From: Deltaproteobacteria bacterium | GTDB taxonomy: Bacteria > Myxococcota_A > Polyangia > Polyangiales > JADJMO01 | Assembly: GCA_022843175.1 (NCBI GenBank) | Contig: JALHOE010000012.1 | Span: forward strand, 1 to 64,000 | DNA: 64,000 bases | Direction of reading: 5' to 3' | Part shown: positions 7,386 through 53,425 of the stretch, piece after piece | Numbering within the stretch: position 1 is the first letter of the stretch | How the letters are laid out: each line of letters starts with the position of its first letter | The notes under the pieces: model-generated | Told to the model about the DNA's origin: nothing | What the model saw: only the letters and a program-made list of their open reading frames with translations | The model's database searches: none | Position numbers and translations under genes: made by a program

Positions 7386-7528
7386 GGCCTGTCTCTAAAA
7401 CGCCCGGCGCTGACCGAAAGGGTGCACGTGTGCCTACGGGTGCGCCGCGACCGTGCGGAACTGGCGCGCTCGGAGGCACTCGATTTCTCGGCACCTCTGC
7501 GTGCACGCTCGGCCGTGCGCGCCGCTAC

Positions 7529-7561
7529 GGCCGCGACGCGGCCCAGTTTTTTTTCGCGGCC
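7529..7561 (+). terminator. Intrinsic terminator / attenuator-like structure upstream of the phosphohexomutase
   Basis: GGCCGCG (7529-7535) can pair with CGCGGCC (7537-7543), followed by CAG and eight T (7547-7554), a textbook intrinsic terminator in a genome almost free of T runs. A second identical CGCGGCC follows the T run (7555-7561). It can compete for the same left arm and would bury the T tract, giving two mutually exclusive folds. It sits in a divergent promoter region, where a plain terminator is not expected. It may be an attenuator or the end of a small leader RNA starting after 7386. Confidence 0.5.
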
Positions 7562-7590
7562 GAGCGCGTTTCGAGCCCAGCCATTCCGGG

Positions 7591-7596
7591 TATCCT
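7591..7596 (+). promoter_or_regulatory. -10-like hexamer TATCCT
   Basis: TATCCT lies 7 nt before the GTG at 7604. If it is used, the message is leaderless and starts downstream of the 7529-7561 structure, which would then belong to a second, upstream transcript. Confidence 0.35.
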
Positions 7597-7603
7597 CCGC
7601 GCC

Positions 7604-9325
7604 GTGAACGAGAACGAACTGGTCCGTAGGGCGCAGCAGTGGCTCGACGACGACATCGACGACGAGTCGAAGGACGAGCTCCGCGCGCTCATCCATCGCG
7701 GCGCCATGACCGAGCTGCGCGAGCGCTTCGCCGGCCCGCTCGAGTTCGGGACCGCCGGCCTCCGCGGCACGCTCGGCGCCGGCGAGAGCCGCATGAACCG
7801 CGCGGTCGTCGTGCGCACGACCGCTGGGCTCGCTCGGTTCCTCCTCGAGAACGTGCCCAACGCGGCCACGCGCGGGGTCGTGCTCGGCCGCGACGCGCGG
7901 CGCGGAAGCGCACAGTTCATCGAGGACGCGGCGGAGGTGCTCGCCGGGCTCGGCATCACCGCGCACGTCTTCCCCGACATCGTGCCGACGCCGCTCGTCT
8001 CGTATGCAGTGCGCACGCTCGGCGCCGCGGCGGGCGTGATGATCACCGCGAGCCACAACCCGCCGGAGTACAACGGCTACAAGGTCTACGCGGAGAACTC
8101 GGCGCAGATCATCCCCCCGACCGACGTCGGCATCGCGGCCGAGATCGCGCGGGTCGAGCCGGCGCGCTCGGTGCCGCGCCGCAAGGATCCAGCGCGCCGG
8201 CGCGCGATCCCCGAGTCGCTGGTCGACGCGTACTTCGACGAGGTCGTGCGCGCCTCGCGCCGCAGCGCCGGGCGCGATCAGATCACGATCGTCTACACCC
8301 CGATGCACGGCGTCGGCGACCGCTTTGCCCACGAGGTCTTCCGTCGCATGGGTCTCCGCGCGATCTCGGTGCCCGAGCAGCGGGAGCCCGACGGCGCCTT
8401 CCCCACGGTGCGGTTCCCCAACCCCGAGGAGCCCGGCGCGCTCGATCTCGCGCTGGCGCTCGCGCGCGCGCAGAACGCCGACGTCGTCATCGCGAACGAT
8501 CCCGACGCCGATCGATTGGCCGTGGCCGTGCCCGACGGCAAGGGCTCGTTCGTGCAGCTCAACGGCAACGAGCTGGGCGTGCTCCTCGGGCACTACCTGC
8601 TCGCCGACGACCCGCACCCGGCGCGCGATCGCCTCGCGATCACGACCATCGTGTCCTCGCCGCTCCTCGGCATCATGTGCCGCGCGCTCGGCGTCCGCTA
8701 CGGCGAGACGCTCACCGGCTTCAAGTGGATCACCAACCGCGCGATGGAGCTCGAGCGACAGACCGGAGCGCGCTTTGTCTTTGGGTACGAGGAGGCCCTC
8801 GGGTACACCGTCGACGCGCTGGTCCGCGACAAGGACGGCATCTCCGCCGCGGCCCGCATGGGCGAGCTCGTCGGCGCGCTCAAGGCGCGCGGCGAGACGG
8901 TCCTCGGGCGGCTCGAGCGGATCTACCGCGAGTTCGGGCTGGTGGTGTCGCGGCAACACAACGTCACGCGCCCGGGCAGCGAGGGCAAAGAGGCGATCAA
9001 GCGCGAGATGGCCGCGATGCGCGCGTCGCCGCCGTCGACGATCGGCGCCGAGCGGATCACCTCCGTGCGCGACTACCTGCCCGGCGACGAGCTGCCGTCG
9101 AGCGACGTGCTCACCTTCCACCTCGAGGGCGGCTCGCGCGTCACCATGCGCCCGAGCGGCACCGAGCCGAAGATTAAATACTACTTCGACGTCGTCGAGA
9201 CGCTCACGGCCGACGAGCCGTTCGAACACGGACGCGCCCGCGCGACCGCGCGCCTCGAGGCGCTGACGAAGGCCTTCATCGCCCTCACCGCCGGGCTGCC
9301 CGTCACCCCAACCACCGCCCCCTAG
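7604..9325 (+). CDS. Alpha-D-phosphohexomutase (phosphoglucomutase/phosphomannomutase, PgcA/PGM2 type)
   Basis: The protein is 573 aa, the length of the PGM2/PgcA branch rather than the 450-aa bacterial PMM branch. It should interconvert hexose 1- and 6-phosphates (possibly also pentose phosphates) through an enzyme-bound phosphoserine. Domain 1 has FGTAGLRGTLG and ITASHNPPEYNGYK, with the phosphorylated Ser near residue 149. The Mg loop NDPDADR is near 298, the sugar-specificity loop GFKWI near 372 with FGYEEALGY near 393, and the phosphate-binding RPSGTEPK near 516. All four active-site loops are intact. The frame stays open upstream, but GTG 7604 matches the family N-terminus and the -10 position. 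Its TAG lies inside the left arm of a long inverted repeat. Confidence 0.93.
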   Translation: MNENELVRRAQQWLDDDIDDESKDELRALIHRGAMTELRERFAGPLEFGTAGLRGTLGAGESRMNRAVVVRTTAGLARFLLENVPNAATRGVVLGRDARRGSAQFIEDAAEVLAGLGITAHVFPDIVPTPLVSYAVRTLGAAAGVMITASHNPPEYNGYKVYAENSAQIIPPTDVGIAAEIARVEPARSVPRRKDPARRRAIPESLVDAYFDEVVRASRRSAGRDQITIVYTPMHGVGDRFAHEVFRRMGLRAISVPEQREPDGAFPTVRFPNPEEPGALDLALALARAQNADVVIANDPDADRLAVAVPDGKGSFVQLNGNELGVLLGHYLLADDPHPARDRLAITTIVSSPLLGIMCRALGVRYGETLTGFKWITNRAMELERQTGARFVFGYEEALGYTVDALVRDKDGISAAARMGELVGALKARGETVLGRLERIYREFGLVVSRQHNVTRPGSEGKEAIKREMAAMRASPPSTIGAERITSVRDYLPGDELPSSDVLTFHLEGGSRVTMRPSGTEPKIKYYFDVVETLTADEPFEHGRARATARLEALTKAFIALTAGLPVTPTTAP

Positions 9326-9386
9326 CCGCGCGCGTCAGCGAGCGGCTTGTCGCGCCGCGTAGCCGCTCGCTCACGCGCGCGGCTAG
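9322..9386. repeat. Long GC-rich inverted repeat between convergent genes (likely bidirectional terminator)
   Basis: Arms 9322-9347 and 9361-9386 are complementary over 26 bp with a single mismatch, around a 13-nt loop. The shared core is CGCGCGTCAGCGAGCG. The left arm includes the stop codon of the phosphohexomutase, and the right arm ends 3 bp before the stop of the VWA gene on the other strand. The same arm sequence recurs at 22597-22796 and 37651-37674. It would form a very stable hairpin in either transcript. There is no T tract, so it would be a non-canonical or Rho-assisted terminator or an mRNA 3'-end stabiliser. Confidence 0.75.
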
Positions 9387-10599: not shown

Positions 10600-11310
10600 A
10601 TGCAGGTCGAGATCGTCCCGTGCCTCTCGGACAACTACGCCTACCTCCTGATCGACGAGGGCGTCTGCGCGCTGGTCGACGCCTGCGAGGCCGCGCCGAT
10701 CCGTGCGGCGCTCGGGGAGCGCAAGCTCACCGCGATCCTATCGACCCACCACCACCACGACCACGTCGGCGGCAACGAGGCCTTCCCGGGCATTCCGATC
10801 TACGGCCACCGCTCGGACGCAGACCGCCTGCCGGGGCTGAACCACCCGCTCGACGACGGCGACACCTTTCAGCTCGGGCCGCTCCGGATTCGCGCCCACC
10901 ACGTCCCCGGCCACACGCTCGGCGCCGTCGCCTACGAGGTGACGCCGAGGGTGGGGCCGCGTTGGGTGTTCACCGGAGACACGTTCTTCCTCGCGGGGTG
11001 CGGCCGTCTGTTCGAGGGGACGCCCGCGCAGATGTTCACGTCGTTGCATCGGATCGCCGCGCTCGGCGACGAGGTCCTCGTCGCGTGCGGTCACGAGTAC
11101 ACGGCGTCGAACCTCAAGTTCGCGGCGCACGCCGAGCCCGACAACGAGGCCGTCCGCGCGCGGATCGAGGCGGTCGCCAAGCTGCGCGCGAACAACGCGC
11201 CCACGGTGCCGGCGACGATCGCCGTCGAGAAGGAGACCAACCCCTTCCTCCGCGCCGCCGACGTCGCCACCCTCGCGCGCCTGCGCAGCGAGAAGGACAA
11301 CTTTCGCTAG
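10600..11310 (+). CDS. gloB: Hydroxyacylglutathione hydrolase (glyoxalase II)
   Basis: The protein is 236 aa, close to the usual 250. It is a metallo-beta-lactamase-fold enzyme that hydrolyses S-lactoylglutathione to lactate and glutathione in methylglyoxal detoxification. The signature THHHHDH (T49-H55) fits THxHxDH. Other ligands are in HVPGHTLG, in FTGDTFF (bridging Asp) and in CGHEYT (last His). The NPFLR segment near the C-terminus is typical of glyoxalase II substrate binding. No glyoxalase I is adjacent. The gene is likely monocistronic, since a GC-rich palindrome follows the stop. Confidence 0.9.
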   Translation: MQVEIVPCLSDNYAYLLIDEGVCALVDACEAAPIRAALGERKLTAILSTHHHHDHVGGNEAFPGIPIYGHRSDADRLPGLNHPLDDGDTFQLGPLRIRAHHVPGHTLGAVAYEVTPRVGPRWVFTGDTFFLAGCGRLFEGTPAQMFTSLHRIAALGDEVLVACGHEYTASNLKFAAHAEPDNEAVRARIEAVAKLRANNAPTVPATIAVEKETNPFLRAADVATLARLRSEKDNFR

Positions 11311-45677: not shown

Positions 45678-46382
45678 CTAACCCGAGGCGAACTCCTCGA
45701 CCAGGGTCGCCTCGGACAGGTCGCCGAGGAACACCTCGCGCTCGCCGTTGCAGCTGCGGATCAGCGTGGGGGTCATCGCCACGCCGTCCACCCGCGCGCG
45801 CCCCGCGTCGTGAAGGATGTCGATGACCTCGAGGTTGCGGTCGTGGAGGACGCGTCGGACGGTGCGCTCGGCCCGGTCGGAAGCCACGCTTCCGGGCGTA
45901 ACGTAGAGCGCGAAACTCTGACGCTTCGGCCGGAGCGACAGCCGCACGCTCGGGGGCGCGGCCGGCGGGCGCGGGAGGAGGGTCGGACGGACAAACTGAG
46001 CGATGGTCGACAGGAGCGCGTCGATGTCGAACGGCTTGCGGATGATCGCGTCGACCCGCGCCTTGAGGGTCTCGAGCCGGTGCTCCGCGGTGAGCACGAC
46101 GATTGGCACGTTCTCCGTCCGCACGTTCGAGCGCACCCGGGCGCAGAGCTGGTGGCCGTCGACGTTCGGCATCTGCAGGTCGGTGATGATCAGCGCCGGG
46201 ACCTCCCGCGCGATCTGCTGGAGCGCCTCGGCGCCGTCGGCCGCGACGACGACCTGATAGCCCTCGACCTCGAGCACCTCCCGGAGCGCGAGGCGGATCG
46301 GCTCGTCGTCCTCCGCGACGAGGATCGTCGCCTCCGACGCGTCGTCAGCGACGAGGCGCAGGTGCGGAAAGGCGGACGACAC
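45678..46382 (-). CDS. Response regulator fused to a KaiB-like domain
   Basis: The protein is 234 aa. Residues 18-132 are a complete receiver: ILVAEDDEPIR, phospho-acceptor Asp68 in IITDLQMPNVDG, Thr98 and Lys116 (IIRKPFD). After a Pro-rich linker, residues 155-231 read SFALYVTPGSVASDRAERTV, then LEVIDILHDAG, MTPTLIR and FLGDLSEATLVEEF. These match the KaiB/SasA-N pattern: KLYVAG-NTP, VIDV, ATPTL, GDLS. KaiB domains are thioredoxin-like and can switch fold. No DNA-binding or enzyme domain is present, so output would be by protein contact. It is on the strand of, and 45 bp upstream from, speD. Confidence 0.78.
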   Translation of the reverse strand: MSSAFPHLRLVADDASEATILVAEDDEPIRLALREVLEVEGYQVVVAADGAEALQQIAREVPALIITDLQMPNVDGHQLCARVRSNVRTENVPIVVLTAEHRLETLKARVDAIIRKPFDIDALLSTIAQFVRPTLLPRPPAAPPSVRLSLRPKRQSFALYVTPGSVASDRAERTVRRVLHDRNLEVIDILHDAGRARVDGVAMTPTLIRSCNGEREVFLGDLSEATLVEEFASG

Positions 46383-48058: not shown

Positions 48059-48817
48059 TCACCGCTTCGGAGCGGCCTTGCCGTCGACGTGCACCTGCGC
48101 CTTGTCATCGATCTTCTTTCCGACTTTTTCGAGCGCACCTGCAAGGAACTGGCCCGTGAGGTCACGCGGTTTGACGTCGTGCTCCGACAGGCTCGCGATG
48201 ACGGGCTGCGTCGTCTTGAAGGCGATCTCGGTCGGCGCGTCGGGCGGGCCCTTGAAGGAGACGTCCACCTCGACCGACTTCTTGGCGGACCGCCCGTGAA
48301 CGCGGAGGGTGCCCTTGGCCGAGAAGTGAACGGTGCGGACGCCGGACTCTTCCTTGGCTGCCGCGAGCGAGGCGGCGCTCGTCCGCTCGATGCTCTCGAT
48401 GGTGAAGCGCGCCATCCGATAGTCGTCGCGCTTCACCTTCTCGACCTTCTCGCCGAGCTCGAACCAGTTGCGGGCGTGCTCGGTCTGGCTCTCGTTCTTG
48501 TCGCCGTCGGCGAACGTGTGGGTCGTGAAGGCGTCGAGATCGGCCACCACCTCGCCGGTCGACGCCGCGAGGTTTCCGAGGTCGACGTCGAACACCCCGG
48601 AGAGCTTCTCGGTCTTGCCCTGAAACTTCTCGAGCGGCGCGTCGATCGTGACCGACAGCGCGCCGGCCGAGTCGATCACGAAGCGGCGCTTGCCCTGCTC
48701 GACGCCCTTGGAGCTCGCGGCGATCGGCGCCGGGGTCTCCTTGATCGGCGAGATCTCCGGATCCTTCTTGCAGGCCGGCAGAACGAGGAGCGCGAGGAGG
48801 AGGGTGCGTGCGGTCAT
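48059..48817 (-). CDS. YceI-like lipoprotein in the bufferin-type operon
   Basis: The protein is 252 aa. Lipobox LLVLPAC (Cys16) is followed by a short linker. The sequence then follows the YceI lipocalin-like course: RFVIDSAGALSVTI, LSGVFDVDLGNL, ARNWFELGEKVEKVKRDDYRMARFTIESI, and VHFSAKGTLRVHGRSAKKSVEVDVSF. YceI proteins bind isoprenoids or other hydrophobic ligands in the periplasm. Its ATG overlaps the DUF2063 stop (ATGA), placing it in one operon with the MNIO pair; it takes the place where bufferin operons often have a DoxX-type membrane protein. Confidence 0.72.
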   Translation of the reverse strand: MTARTLLLALLVLPACKKDPEISPIKETPAPIAASSKGVEQGKRRFVIDSAGALSVTIDAPLEKFQGKTEKLSGVFDVDLGNLAASTGEVVADLDAFTTHTFADGDKNESQTEHARNWFELGEKVEKVKRDDYRMARFTIESIERTSAASLAAAKEESGVRTVHFSAKGTLRVHGRSAKKSVEVDVSFKGPPDAPTEIAFKTTQPVIASLSEHDVKPRDLTGQFLAGALEKVGKKIDDKAQVHVDGKAAPKR

Positions 48818-49620
48818 CTCGTGTCCCCTACGACGAAACCTTCGACAGGTTTCGCTCCCAACCAAACGCCGCGGTCGGCGAGGTCCGACACCAACTCGGC
48901 GAACGAGCCCACCAGCGCCCCGTCGATCTCGAAGCGCTCGCGGGCGGCCGCGGCGCGGACCGCCTCGACCACCGTCGCGTCGCCGCGCGCGACCTCCTCG
49001 AGGATCGCCGCCGCGACCGGCGAGAGCTCGAGCACCCGCACCTCGTGGGAGGCGGGATCGCGGTACAGGCAGAGCGCGAACGGGCCCTCCTCGACCACGG
49101 CGTCGCGGTCGAGGTCGTCGGGCAGGCGGTGCACCGCGTAGCGCGCGCGGAGGATCTTGTGCGCCGGCGTGAGCACCGCCGGGCGGTTGAAGTCGAGCTC
49201 GCCGATCTCGCGGACGTCGTCGGCGCCGGACTCCTGACCCGCGTACTCGACCTCCAGCATCGCCTGCTCGTGACGCGCGAGCTCGAGGACCCACGGCGGC
49301 GCGGTGGCCGGCAGCACGTCGGGGCGGAGGAAGCGGAGGAGCTCGGCCGCGACGTCGCGGAGGTAGGGGGAGCGCGGCGGCGATTCGTCGAACCATCGCT
49401 CCACGATCGGCTCGAGATCCCCGAGCACCGCCGCGAGGCGGGGGAAGCATCCCTCCACCACGTCGGTGAGGCGGTGGCGCGCCATGCGTCGGTAGACGCG
49501 GAAGCGCCGCTCGGCCCGCGCGTCCGTGGAGCCCTCGCAGAGCACCGCGAGCTGCTTCTCGAAGTCCTTCTTGAAGAGGAGCTCGAGGAACGCTCGCTGG
49601 TATTCGGCGAGGTCGGTCAT
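48814..49620 (-). CDS. DUF2063 protein, partner of the MNIO enzyme (BufC/HvfC type)
   Basis: The protein is 268 aa. The N-terminal DUF2063 helical domain is recognised from YQRAFLELLF, RFRVYRRMARHRLTDVVEGCFPRLAAVLGD and PPRSPYLRDVAAELLRFL. The C-terminal half (GELDFNRPAVLTPAHKILRARYAVHRL, FALCLYRDPASHEVRVLELSP) resembles a winged-helix/RRE-like unit used to hold precursor peptides. In characterised DUF692 systems this protein forms a complex with the enzyme and the leader peptide. It overlaps both neighbours by ATGA, a sign of fixed stoichiometry. Confidence 0.83.
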   Translation of the reverse strand: MTDLAEYQRAFLELLFKKDFEKQLAVLCEGSTDARAERRFRVYRRMARHRLTDVVEGCFPRLAAVLGDLEPIVERWFDESPPRSPYLRDVAAELLRFLRPDVLPATAPPWVLELARHEQAMLEVEYAGQESGADDVREIGELDFNRPAVLTPAHKILRARYAVHRLPDDLDRDAVVEEGPFALCLYRDPASHEVRVLELSPVAAAILEEVARGDATVVEAVRAAAARERFEIDGALVGSFAELVSDLADRGVWLGAKPVEGFVVGDTR

Positions 49621-50480
49621 CGCTCCCTCTCCGGGCGCTTCTCGGGCGCGCTCCGCCAGATCCGGTCGAGGCGCTCGACCTCGGCGTACAGCTCGTCGAG
49701 GGCGGGGAAGTCGTCGTCGCGCTCGAGGAGCACCGGCACCCTGCCCGTGCGCTCGAGCGTCCACGCGAGGAGCTCGTAGACGTCGTCGCAGAGCGGCTCG
49801 GCGTGGGTGTCGATGATGAAGTCGGGCTCTTCGTAGTAGTGGCCCGCGACGTGGATCTGCACGACGCGGTCGAGCGGCATCTTCGCCAGCACGACACGCG
49901 GGTCGTGGCCATGATTCCGAGCATTTACGTAGACATTATTCACGTCCAGCATCAGCTTGCAGCCGGACTGACTCACGACGGCGTCGACGAACTCGCCATC
50001 GTCGAGCGTCGAGCCGCGGGGCTTCAAGTAATAGCTGATGTTCTCCACCGCGAGCTCGCATGGCAGCTGGTCTTGCGCCTTCCGAATGCGCGCGGCGAAG
50101 TGCGCGGCCGTCTCCTCGTTCCACGGCATCGGCAACAGGTCGTGCGACGCGGCGCCGTGCGCGGTCGAGAAGCAGAGGTGGTCGGAGTGCCACGGGGTCT
50201 CGAGCTCGCGGAGGAAGCGATCGAGGGTGCGGAGGTAGTTCGCGTCGAGCGGGTCGACCCCACCGAGCGACATCGCGAGCCCGTGGGTGGCGATGGGCCA
50301 GCGCTCGCGGCACTTGCGGAGGTTGTCCGGCCAGCGGCCGCCGCGGCGCATGTAGTTCTCGGGGTGGACCTCGAGCCAGCGAATCGCCGGCACCGCGCCC
50401 GCCGCGTGCCGCTCGAGCAGCTCGTCGACGAGCGGATACCGGAGGCCGAGGCCGACGCCCGCGATGTGGGGAGGGCTCAT
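49617..50480 (-). CDS. DUF692 multinuclear iron oxidative enzyme (MNIO; BufB/HvfB-type)
   Basis: The protein is 287 aa, a TIM-barrel family that modifies Cys residues of ribosomally made peptides with O2 and two or three irons. Metal-binding candidates are seen in order: WLEVHPENYM, PIATHGLAMSLGG, PWHSDHLCF, LAVENISYYLKPRG, LMLDVNNVYVNARNHG, VVQIHVAGHYYEE and DTHAEPLCDDVYEL. The set of His, Glu, Asp and Asn residues is complete compared with what I know of MbnB and HvfB. Known products of relatives are oxazolone/thioamides or 5-thiooxazoles that bind copper. The precursor gene lies 168 bp upstream. Confidence 0.92.
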   Translation of the reverse strand: MSPPHIAGVGLGLRYPLVDELLERHAAGAVPAIRWLEVHPENYMRRGGRWPDNLRKCRERWPIATHGLAMSLGGVDPLDANYLRTLDRFLRELETPWHSDHLCFSTAHGAASHDLLPMPWNEETAAHFAARIRKAQDQLPCELAVENISYYLKPRGSTLDDGEFVDAVVSQSGCKLMLDVNNVYVNARNHGHDPRVVLAKMPLDRVVQIHVAGHYYEEPDFIIDTHAEPLCDDVYELLAWTLERTGRVPVLLERDDDFPALDELYAEVERLDRIWRSAPEKRPERER

Positions 50481-50523
50481 GTTGCCGCTCCGCCCGCTGC
50501 GGCGCGGCCGTCGACCAGCGGCC

Positions 50524-50639
50524 GGCGACCGGCGACCGGCGACCGGGCGAGAGGAGAGGGAGAAGGGGGTGCCATGGTGGACAGCGATGAGGGCGCCGCC
50601 GCGTGTGCGGGGCGCCCTCTTGGACGGTCGACGGTCGAC
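50524..50639. repeat. Heptamer repeats and a strong hairpin between precursor and MNIO genes
   Basis: GGCGACC is repeated three times at 50524-50544 and GGTCGAC twice at 50626-50639. Between them, 50591-50602 and 50607-50617 form an 11-bp stem with one bulge (GGGCGCC pairs with GGCGCCC; CCGC with GCGG). The hairpin could stop or slow transcription or protect the precursor mRNA, giving more precursor than enzyme. Confidence 0.5.
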
Positions 50640-50648
50640 CGCTTCAGA

Positions 50649-51197
50649 TCACTTCTTCTTCTTCGCGGCGCACGAGCCGGCGCCGCAGCCCGCCTCGGAC
50701 GCGCCGCCCTTGGCCGCGGGGGCTGCGGGCTTGCTGTCCTTCTTGGCGTCGGCCTTGGCGTCCTTGACGTCCTTCTTCGCGTCCTTCGCGTCGGCCTTGG
50801 CCTCTTTGACCTCCGCCTTCGCTTCCTTGACCTCGGCCTTGGCTTCCTTGACCTCGGCCTTCGCGTCCTTCGCGTCGGCCTTGGCGTCCTTCACGTCGGC
50901 CTTGGCGTCCTTGGTCGCGCCGCAGGAGCCGTCCTTCTTCGCGCCGCAGGAGCCCTCCTTCTTGACGGCGTCCTCCTTCTTGCCGGAACAGGAGCCGTCC
51001 TTCTTCGCGCCGCAGGAGCCGTCCTTCTTCGCGCCGCACGAGTGCTCGCCGGCGCCGCCGGCGGCCTTGGGCTCGGTCGCGGACACGGGCGTCTTCGGGT
51101 CGGTGTTGCTGCCGCCACACGCGGCGACGCTCACACCGAACGCGGCCGCGGCCGCGGCAAGGATCGCGCTCTTGGTCATGCTGCTCTTCTTGGTCAT
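50649..51197 (-). CDS. Bufferin-like RiPP precursor lipoprotein with Cys octapeptides and Ala/Lys/Asp heptads
   Basis: The protein is 182 aa. A signal sequence (SAILAAAAAAFGVSVAAC) has a lipobox with Cys27. Residues 51-96 hold octapeptides of the form [DE]-G-S-C-G-A-K-K, with Cys at 54, 62, 70, 84 and 92; these recall the EGKCG units of bufferin precursors. Residues 97-152 are eight heptads such as DAKADVK and EAKAEVK, predicting one long charged helix. The tail has two more Cys (171, 176) and ends in KKKK. ATG 51197 has GGAG about 9 nt upstream; ATG 51179 is second best. The lipid anchor and heptad arm are unlike the bufferins I know. It is 168 bp upstream of the DUF692 gene. Confidence 0.75.
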   Translation of the reverse strand: MTKKSSMTKSAILAAAAAAFGVSVAACGGSNTDPKTPVSATEPKAAGGAGEHSCGAKKDGSCGAKKDGSCSGKKEDAVKKEGSCGAKKDGSCGATKDAKADVKDAKADAKDAKAEVKEAKAEVKEAKAEVKEAKADAKDAKKDVKDAKADAKKDSKPAAPAAKGGASEAGCGAGSCAAKKKK

Positions 51198-51256: not shown

Positions 51257-53311
<2,055 letters not shown>

Positions 53312-53425
53312 CACGCCTTCCTGCACCTGGCGAGGAACGTTACGGGGCGGCCTCGGTTTCGGATCGGGCCCCCCCGGCAAATAAAAGATCTGCGCGCCGG
53401 AGCATACGCCCCCCGATGAGATCGG

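Follow-up and report, generated by a model that had tools for sequence, protein, structure and literature searches.

The operon described here lies at positions 48059-51197 of a 64,000-nt stretch of contig JALHOE010000012.1 from Deltaproteobacteria bacterium (Myxococcota_A; Polyangiales; JADJMO01), and this whole stretch is what we call the window. Sequence and open reading frame calls place the entire operon on the minus strand, in the order precursor, MNIO, PME1 and YceI-like gene: a 182-aa lipoprotein (50649-51197), read here as the precursor of a ribosomally synthesized and post-translationally modified peptide (RiPP), whose ATG at 51197 is preceded by AGGAG; a 287-aa MNIO (DUF692) enzyme (49617-50480); a PME1 partner with DUF2063 and a domain of the RiPP recognition element (RRE) type (48814-49620); and a YceI-like lipocalin lipoprotein (48059-48817). 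ATGA overlaps join MNIO to PME1 (49620-49617) and PME1 to the YceI-like gene (48817-48814). An earlier reading of the sequence (the original prediction) had placed the DUF692, DUF2063 and YceI-like genes, linked by such overlaps, behind a 182-aa precursor, and coordinates and Pfam matches confirm all of this.

The precursor has eight cysteines, at positions 27, 54, 62, 70, 84, 92, 171 and 176. The first closes a lipobox, VAAC (residues 24-27, by pattern match), and is the putative lipidation site. Direct reading of residues 52-94 (50916-51044) gives five internal units of the form [DE]xSC(G/S), namely EHSCGAKK, DGSCGAKK, DGSCSGKK, EGSCGAKK and DGSCGATK, with Cys54, 62, 70, 84 and 92, just as first described. 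These are followed, at residues 97-152 (50742-50909), by eight exact copies of the Ala/Lys/Asp/Glu heptad [DE]AKx[DE][AV]K, which at the DNA level form a 21-bp tandem array of 8.2 copies; AlphaFold2, run on the single sequence, predicts one helix from 93 to 154 (62 residues; predicted local distance difference test, pLDDT, mostly 84-94), with the rest of the chain disordered. The C-terminal motif AGCGAGSC (50667-50690), overlooked before, holds the pair Cys171/Cys176 (CGAGSC) and thus a CxxxxC motif. No KCG occurs in the window precursor, which carries [DE]GSCG in place of the repeated EGKCG of EGKCG oxazolin precursors; Pfam gave no match in it to DUF2282, which along with four conserved Cys marks Buf1 precursors, and searches of PHROGs and NCBIfam with it returned coiled-coil noise only.

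Conservation of the precursor across Myxococcota

Relatives of the MNIO and their flanking genes were collected from three sets: 57 genomes of the order, GTDB contigs and a phylum sample. Homologous precursors precede homologous MNIOs in more than 40 Myxococcota loci, with further ones at class and phylum level. In the order-level set, near-duplicate loci included, 40 of the 41 precursors directly upstream of an MNIO have a cysteine at the lipobox position (the sole exception is a probable miscall), so that the lipoprotein signal by which DAG-RiPP precursors are recognized is found both in the window and among its relatives. The C-terminal CxxxxC, typically [AG]SCG[AE]G[ST]C, is present in 34/41 and is the best-conserved feature of the family; some members carry this pair alone. 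Internal GSCGAK units vary in number and recur in four of the related loci (L033, L034, L039 and L121).

The linker, on the other hand, is fully variable. In the same-genus locus L033, whose MNIO is 77% identical, it consists of GDAKA repeats, while in L034 and L006/L113 it is Ala/Thr/Pro-rich, and the heptads are therefore best seen as a local expansion; the alignment rules out the heptad helix as a conserved element. Both the eight heptads and the long modeled helix are real, as originally noted, but they find no support as a functional element, and the expectation of [DE]GSCG precursors with heptads near DUF692 in Myxococcota stands for the Cys-motif precursors, which are widespread, and falls for the heptads, which are not shared.

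The proposal built on these features, a new surface-displayed metallophore class defined by lipid anchor and heptad arm, draws on the lipobox and the 62-residue predicted helix, and we now regard it as highly improbable. The anchor is present but is not a novelty, since lipidated, modified NedA has been isolated in tri-acylated form with -12 Da at three EGKCG (PMC12636315), and 16% of Buf2 precursors have lipoprotein signals (PMC12636315, PMC12452194); the heptads are not conserved; and nothing indicates exposure. In Myxococcus xanthus, Lys at +2 is reported to direct lipoproteins to the inner membrane and Ala at +7 to the extracellular side (PMC3222651). The precursor has Gly at +2 and Asp at +7, hence neither cue, and by analogy would default to the outer membrane, whereas Lys at +2 would keep the YceI-like lipoprotein in the inner membrane. 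There is no support for surface display, neither the membrane nor its face being indicated.

It has also to be asked whether the 182-aa lipoprotein is the substrate at all. It is large and of low complexity, and its motif has Ser for Lys, which would suit a plain Cys/Lys-rich envelope protein beside an MNIO that modifies something else. We consider this quite unlikely: dozens of loci have the precursor gene directly before that of the MNIO, with gaps down to 5 bp, what is conserved in the precursor is the Cys motif, and no second copy of the precursor, nor a second precursor-like gene, was found in the genome. The only other MNIO there (G000:C18; L136, 7724-9064) has a C-terminal extension and no DUF2063 partner, and adjoins a TIGR04222 membrane protein (ending at 10760) with the Gly/Cys-rich tail CGGGGGCGGGGGCGG. 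TIGR04222 is a known MNIO-associated type, and this pair is a separate MNIO system; a canonical precursor elsewhere, which had been named as grounds for abandoning the substrate assignment, did not turn up.

Between the precursor and MNIO genes, a hairpin at 50589-50619 on the minus strand has a z of -4.2, with 0/200 shuffles equally stable. The strong hairpin of the original prediction is real in the window, but it is absent from L006/L113, where the precursor-MNIO gap is ~5 bp, and different in L033, which rules it out as a conserved attenuator. The ~5 bp spacing in L113 makes co-transcription of precursor and MNIO likely. No sigma-70 promoter was found, and terminator-like sites were no commoner than in shuffles.

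Several related loci depart from the common plan. In L124 (G053:C34) one MNIO is preceded by two tandem lipoprotein precursors; in L176 (G253) the 107-aa precursor repeats EGSCKG instead of GSCG, so that Lys follows Cys, and may represent a form midway between SCG and Cys-Lys motifs; and in L043 (Polyangia) a 180-aa lipoprotein before the MNIO has ~10 TSAGCPG repeats, a further motif type.

The MNIO and its PME1 partner

The window protein is a full-length MNIO domain (PF05114, E=3.6e-96) and belongs to the MNIO superfamily. Aligned with 3BWW, its closest solved structure, it has the iron-site residues DVNN and DTH, together with further His/Asp/Glu. HvfB loses activity when the Asn of DVNN or the Asp or His of DTH is mutated (PMC13419390), and these residues are all present, in keeping with the metal-ligand set originally assigned. 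The PME1 matches DUF2063 (PF09836, 2.9e-15) and NGO1945_C (PF22106, 7.8e-11), both above cut-off, which identifies it as PME-type 1; it is HvfC-like, yet under the cut-off of the HvfC model. A natural MNIO-PME1 fusion is apparent in L143 (G037:C3, ~7440-9365), where MNIO and DUF2063 share one 642-aa open frame.

The MNIO scores 293.9 bits with the HvfB model NF003818 (cut-off 360 bits) and 287.5 bits with the BufB model NF050167 (cut-off 310 bits). HvfB/EGKCG (Lys-Cys) enzymes are marked at the two published specificity sites by Arg-Arg and Asp-Phe, the combination seen in the EGKCG enzyme from Bowmanella. In the window MNIO these sites read Arg-Tyr and Asp-Asp instead, and in most members of its group Arg-[Tyr/His/Met/Trp/other] and Asp-[Asn/Gln/Gly/Asp]. 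In the MNIO tree, a branch with a support of 89 (quick method) splits the enzymes of SCG-motif operons from those of the Buf1, Buf2-like and EGKCG types; the one outsider among the SCG enzymes is the second MNIO in the window genome, which has a long branch. Judged by its sequence, the window MNIO would work like a captophorin/bufferin maturase while fitting neither curated type.

The YceI-like and kinase genes

The YceI-like lipoprotein (lipobox LPAC, Cys16) scores just above the PF04264 cut-off (24.8 against 23.7 bits; 3e-5). Its sequence has no match in the PDB, and the family was instead placed by fold: the best Foldseek matches of an AlphaFold2 model (pLDDT 80) are YceI/BcnA structures (E about 1e-9). 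With 171 YceI genes (by Pfam) and 89 MNIO matches in the 57 genomes of the order, random placement would give about 0.4 YceI-MNIO pairs within 5 kb, against 15 observed. These pairs were counted by hand from tables, are not independent, and in nine cases come from a profile built from MNIO neighbors. Families f1, f3 and f12 all contribute, the YceI gene may precede or follow the MNIO, and the MNIO may be of the SCG or the Buf2 type; with placements so varied, several events are likely. DoxX lies within 5 kb of no SCG operon and adjoins other MNIOs (G001:C179, G014, G019); the idea that a YceI-like lipoprotein stands where a DoxX-type gene might be expected has thus gained, as a recurrent association. 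In the literature we found no report joining YceI with MNIO or bufferins. One YceI-like gene appears to be split across the end of contig G003:C86 and the start of G003:C38, which are probably adjacent.

The other neighbor, missed in the original prediction, is a gene 59 bp upstream of the precursor, also on the minus strand (51257-53380; likely start ATG 53311). It encodes a Ser/Thr kinase domain (PF00069), a transmembrane segment at ~392-410 (by hydropathy) and a domain of the formylglycine-generating enzyme (FGE) fold (PF03781). A close orthologue (E<1e-100) adjoins the SCG operon in 7 of the 9 genomes that have it, lying upstream of the operon in f1 and for the most part downstream in f12. 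The FGE part, RGGAWNGAFPTWVRPSFRYS, gave no phmmer match in the PDB and lacks the Cys pair that we take to be the copper site of true FGEs, which makes a sensor role for the kinase a guess. Also near the operon is a response regulator (window 45678-46382), whose homologue in L033 (9288-10064) has a C-terminal KaiB domain.

Both genes could be passengers without a shared function, a view compatible with a RiPP operon and one that we hold possible but doubt. The YceI gene is missing in L033 and many members of the order, and arrangements differ; against this, YceI recurs in different placements in three families and also beside Buf2-type MNIOs (L145, L147), and the kinase is adjacent in most genomes that have it.

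Interpretation and comparison with known systems

We consider it probable that the operon belongs to a Myxococcota branch of the captophorin/bufferin systems and makes a lipid-anchored, Cys-modified metal-binding peptide, a reading which the relatives across the phylum support. Several observations weigh against it. The MNIO is under both published maturase cut-offs; Ser, not Lys, precedes Cys in the motif; the YceI gene is absent beside the MNIO of the same-genus locus; and no copper genes were found near the operon in the window or among the top Pfam families of 64 neighboring genes of relatives. As to the Ser residue, EASCGEGSCG, which occurs in many relatives, corresponds to the FonA substrate EAKCGEGKCG with Ser in place of either Lys, and FonBC tolerates Ala, Arg or Thr at the Lys before Cys (PMC13097082), so that the chemistry is plausible on an SCG motif. 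The same enzyme requires Gly or Ala after Cys (PMC13097082) and probably would not accept the unit DGSCSGKK, which may be skipped, a further point on the unfavorable side.

In the scheme that we propose, the RRE-bearing PME1 would bring the precursor to the MNIO in the cytoplasm, where the cysteines in the [DE]GSCG units and in the C-terminal CGAGSC would be oxidized, at up to seven sites and with ~-4 Da each, to the expected 5-thiooxazoles. Sec export of the modified peptide, then lipidation and cleavage at Cys27, would follow, and the anchored peptide would stay in the envelope as a soft-metal buffer, by analogy most likely for copper, without diffusing away. The heptad stretch would be a variable spacer, the YceI-like lipocalin would probably shield membrane lipids or quinones under the same stress, and the transmembrane kinase with its FGE-fold domain is a candidate sensor.

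The same anchored peptide might instead serve another purpose, in the handling of another soft metal, in thiol/redox or lipid-peroxide stress, or as a signal read by the kinase. In line with this are the lack of copper genes next to this operon and to those of its relatives, the kinase-FGE neighbor, and the activity of YceI-fold relatives such as BcnA, which deal with lipid peroxyl radicals (PMC9113575); where MNIO-PME1 products from the closest groups have been tested, however, they are copper peptides, and we rate a role other than copper buffering as rather unlikely. More tentatively than the anchored copper peptide itself, we suggest, as a minority view, an undescribed phylum-level module of anchored SCG captophorins, Myxococcota-specific MNIOs, the YceI lipocalin and a controlling transmembrane kinase that would sense metal or the modified peptide through a periplasmic FGE-fold domain.

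The branch is phylum-wide and apparently undescribed, and YceI and kinase-FGE genes are apparently unreported as recurrent neighbors. With it, the MNIO copper-peptide systems gain a coherent Myxococcota group in which membrane anchoring, elsewhere the exception, would be the norm; the natural Lys to Ser change in the substrate and the differing enzyme residues offer a direct test of the published specificity model; and the YceI lipocalin and kinase-FGE partners may tie metal buffering to lipid protection and signaling.

Among known systems, the captophorins or Buf_EGKCG-oxazolins (FonA, HvfA, MmrA; PMC13097082, PMC12452194) share with the window operon a Sec-type precursor, paired C-G-x-G-x-C units, an MNIO, a DUF2063-RRE partner and the gene order. 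The window operon differs in Ser for Lys before Cys, the lack of DoxX, a long variable linker and a conserved pair at the C-terminus, and its MNIO, placed outside the Lys-Cys enzymes in the tree, has neither their second Arg nor their Phe. The Buf2 (Buf_6/12Cys) bufferins resemble it in that some have lipoprotein signals, and they are present in the same order, some with YceI; their precursors, however, are CK-rich with six Cys, and the Buf2-type MNIO of the same bacterial family (L147) reaches the BufB cut-off, unlike that of the window. Such CK-rich operons occur in close relatives at L145, L146 (G001), L147 (G002) and L148 (G003), with lipobox precursors in L147 and L148 and YceI-like genes beside L145 and L147.

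The uncharacterized CxxxxC precursors, compared by description only, likewise have a signal or lipoprotein signal with CxxxxC and a PME1 partner, but are reported with DoxX and, in 54%, with Lactamase_B_2 (PMC12452194; Cluster X of PMC12636315). Neither is found beside the window operon type, in the case of Lactamase_B_2 among the matches listed on SCG-operon contigs, complete chromosomes apart. The YceI/BcnA bacterial lipocalins (1Y0G, 5IXH) share the predicted fold of the YceI-like protein, which is itself a lipoprotein with insertions and stands beside an MNIO rather than cytochrome b561. Finally, the DAG-RiPPs, with lipo-NedA of Neisseria dentiae (PMC12636315), likewise pair a lipoprotein signal with modification by MNIO and PME1, which is predicted for the window peptide. 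NedA belongs to the EGKCG oxazolins, whereas the window operon represents a Myxococcota SCG branch with predicted lipidation and with YceI and kinase neighbors.

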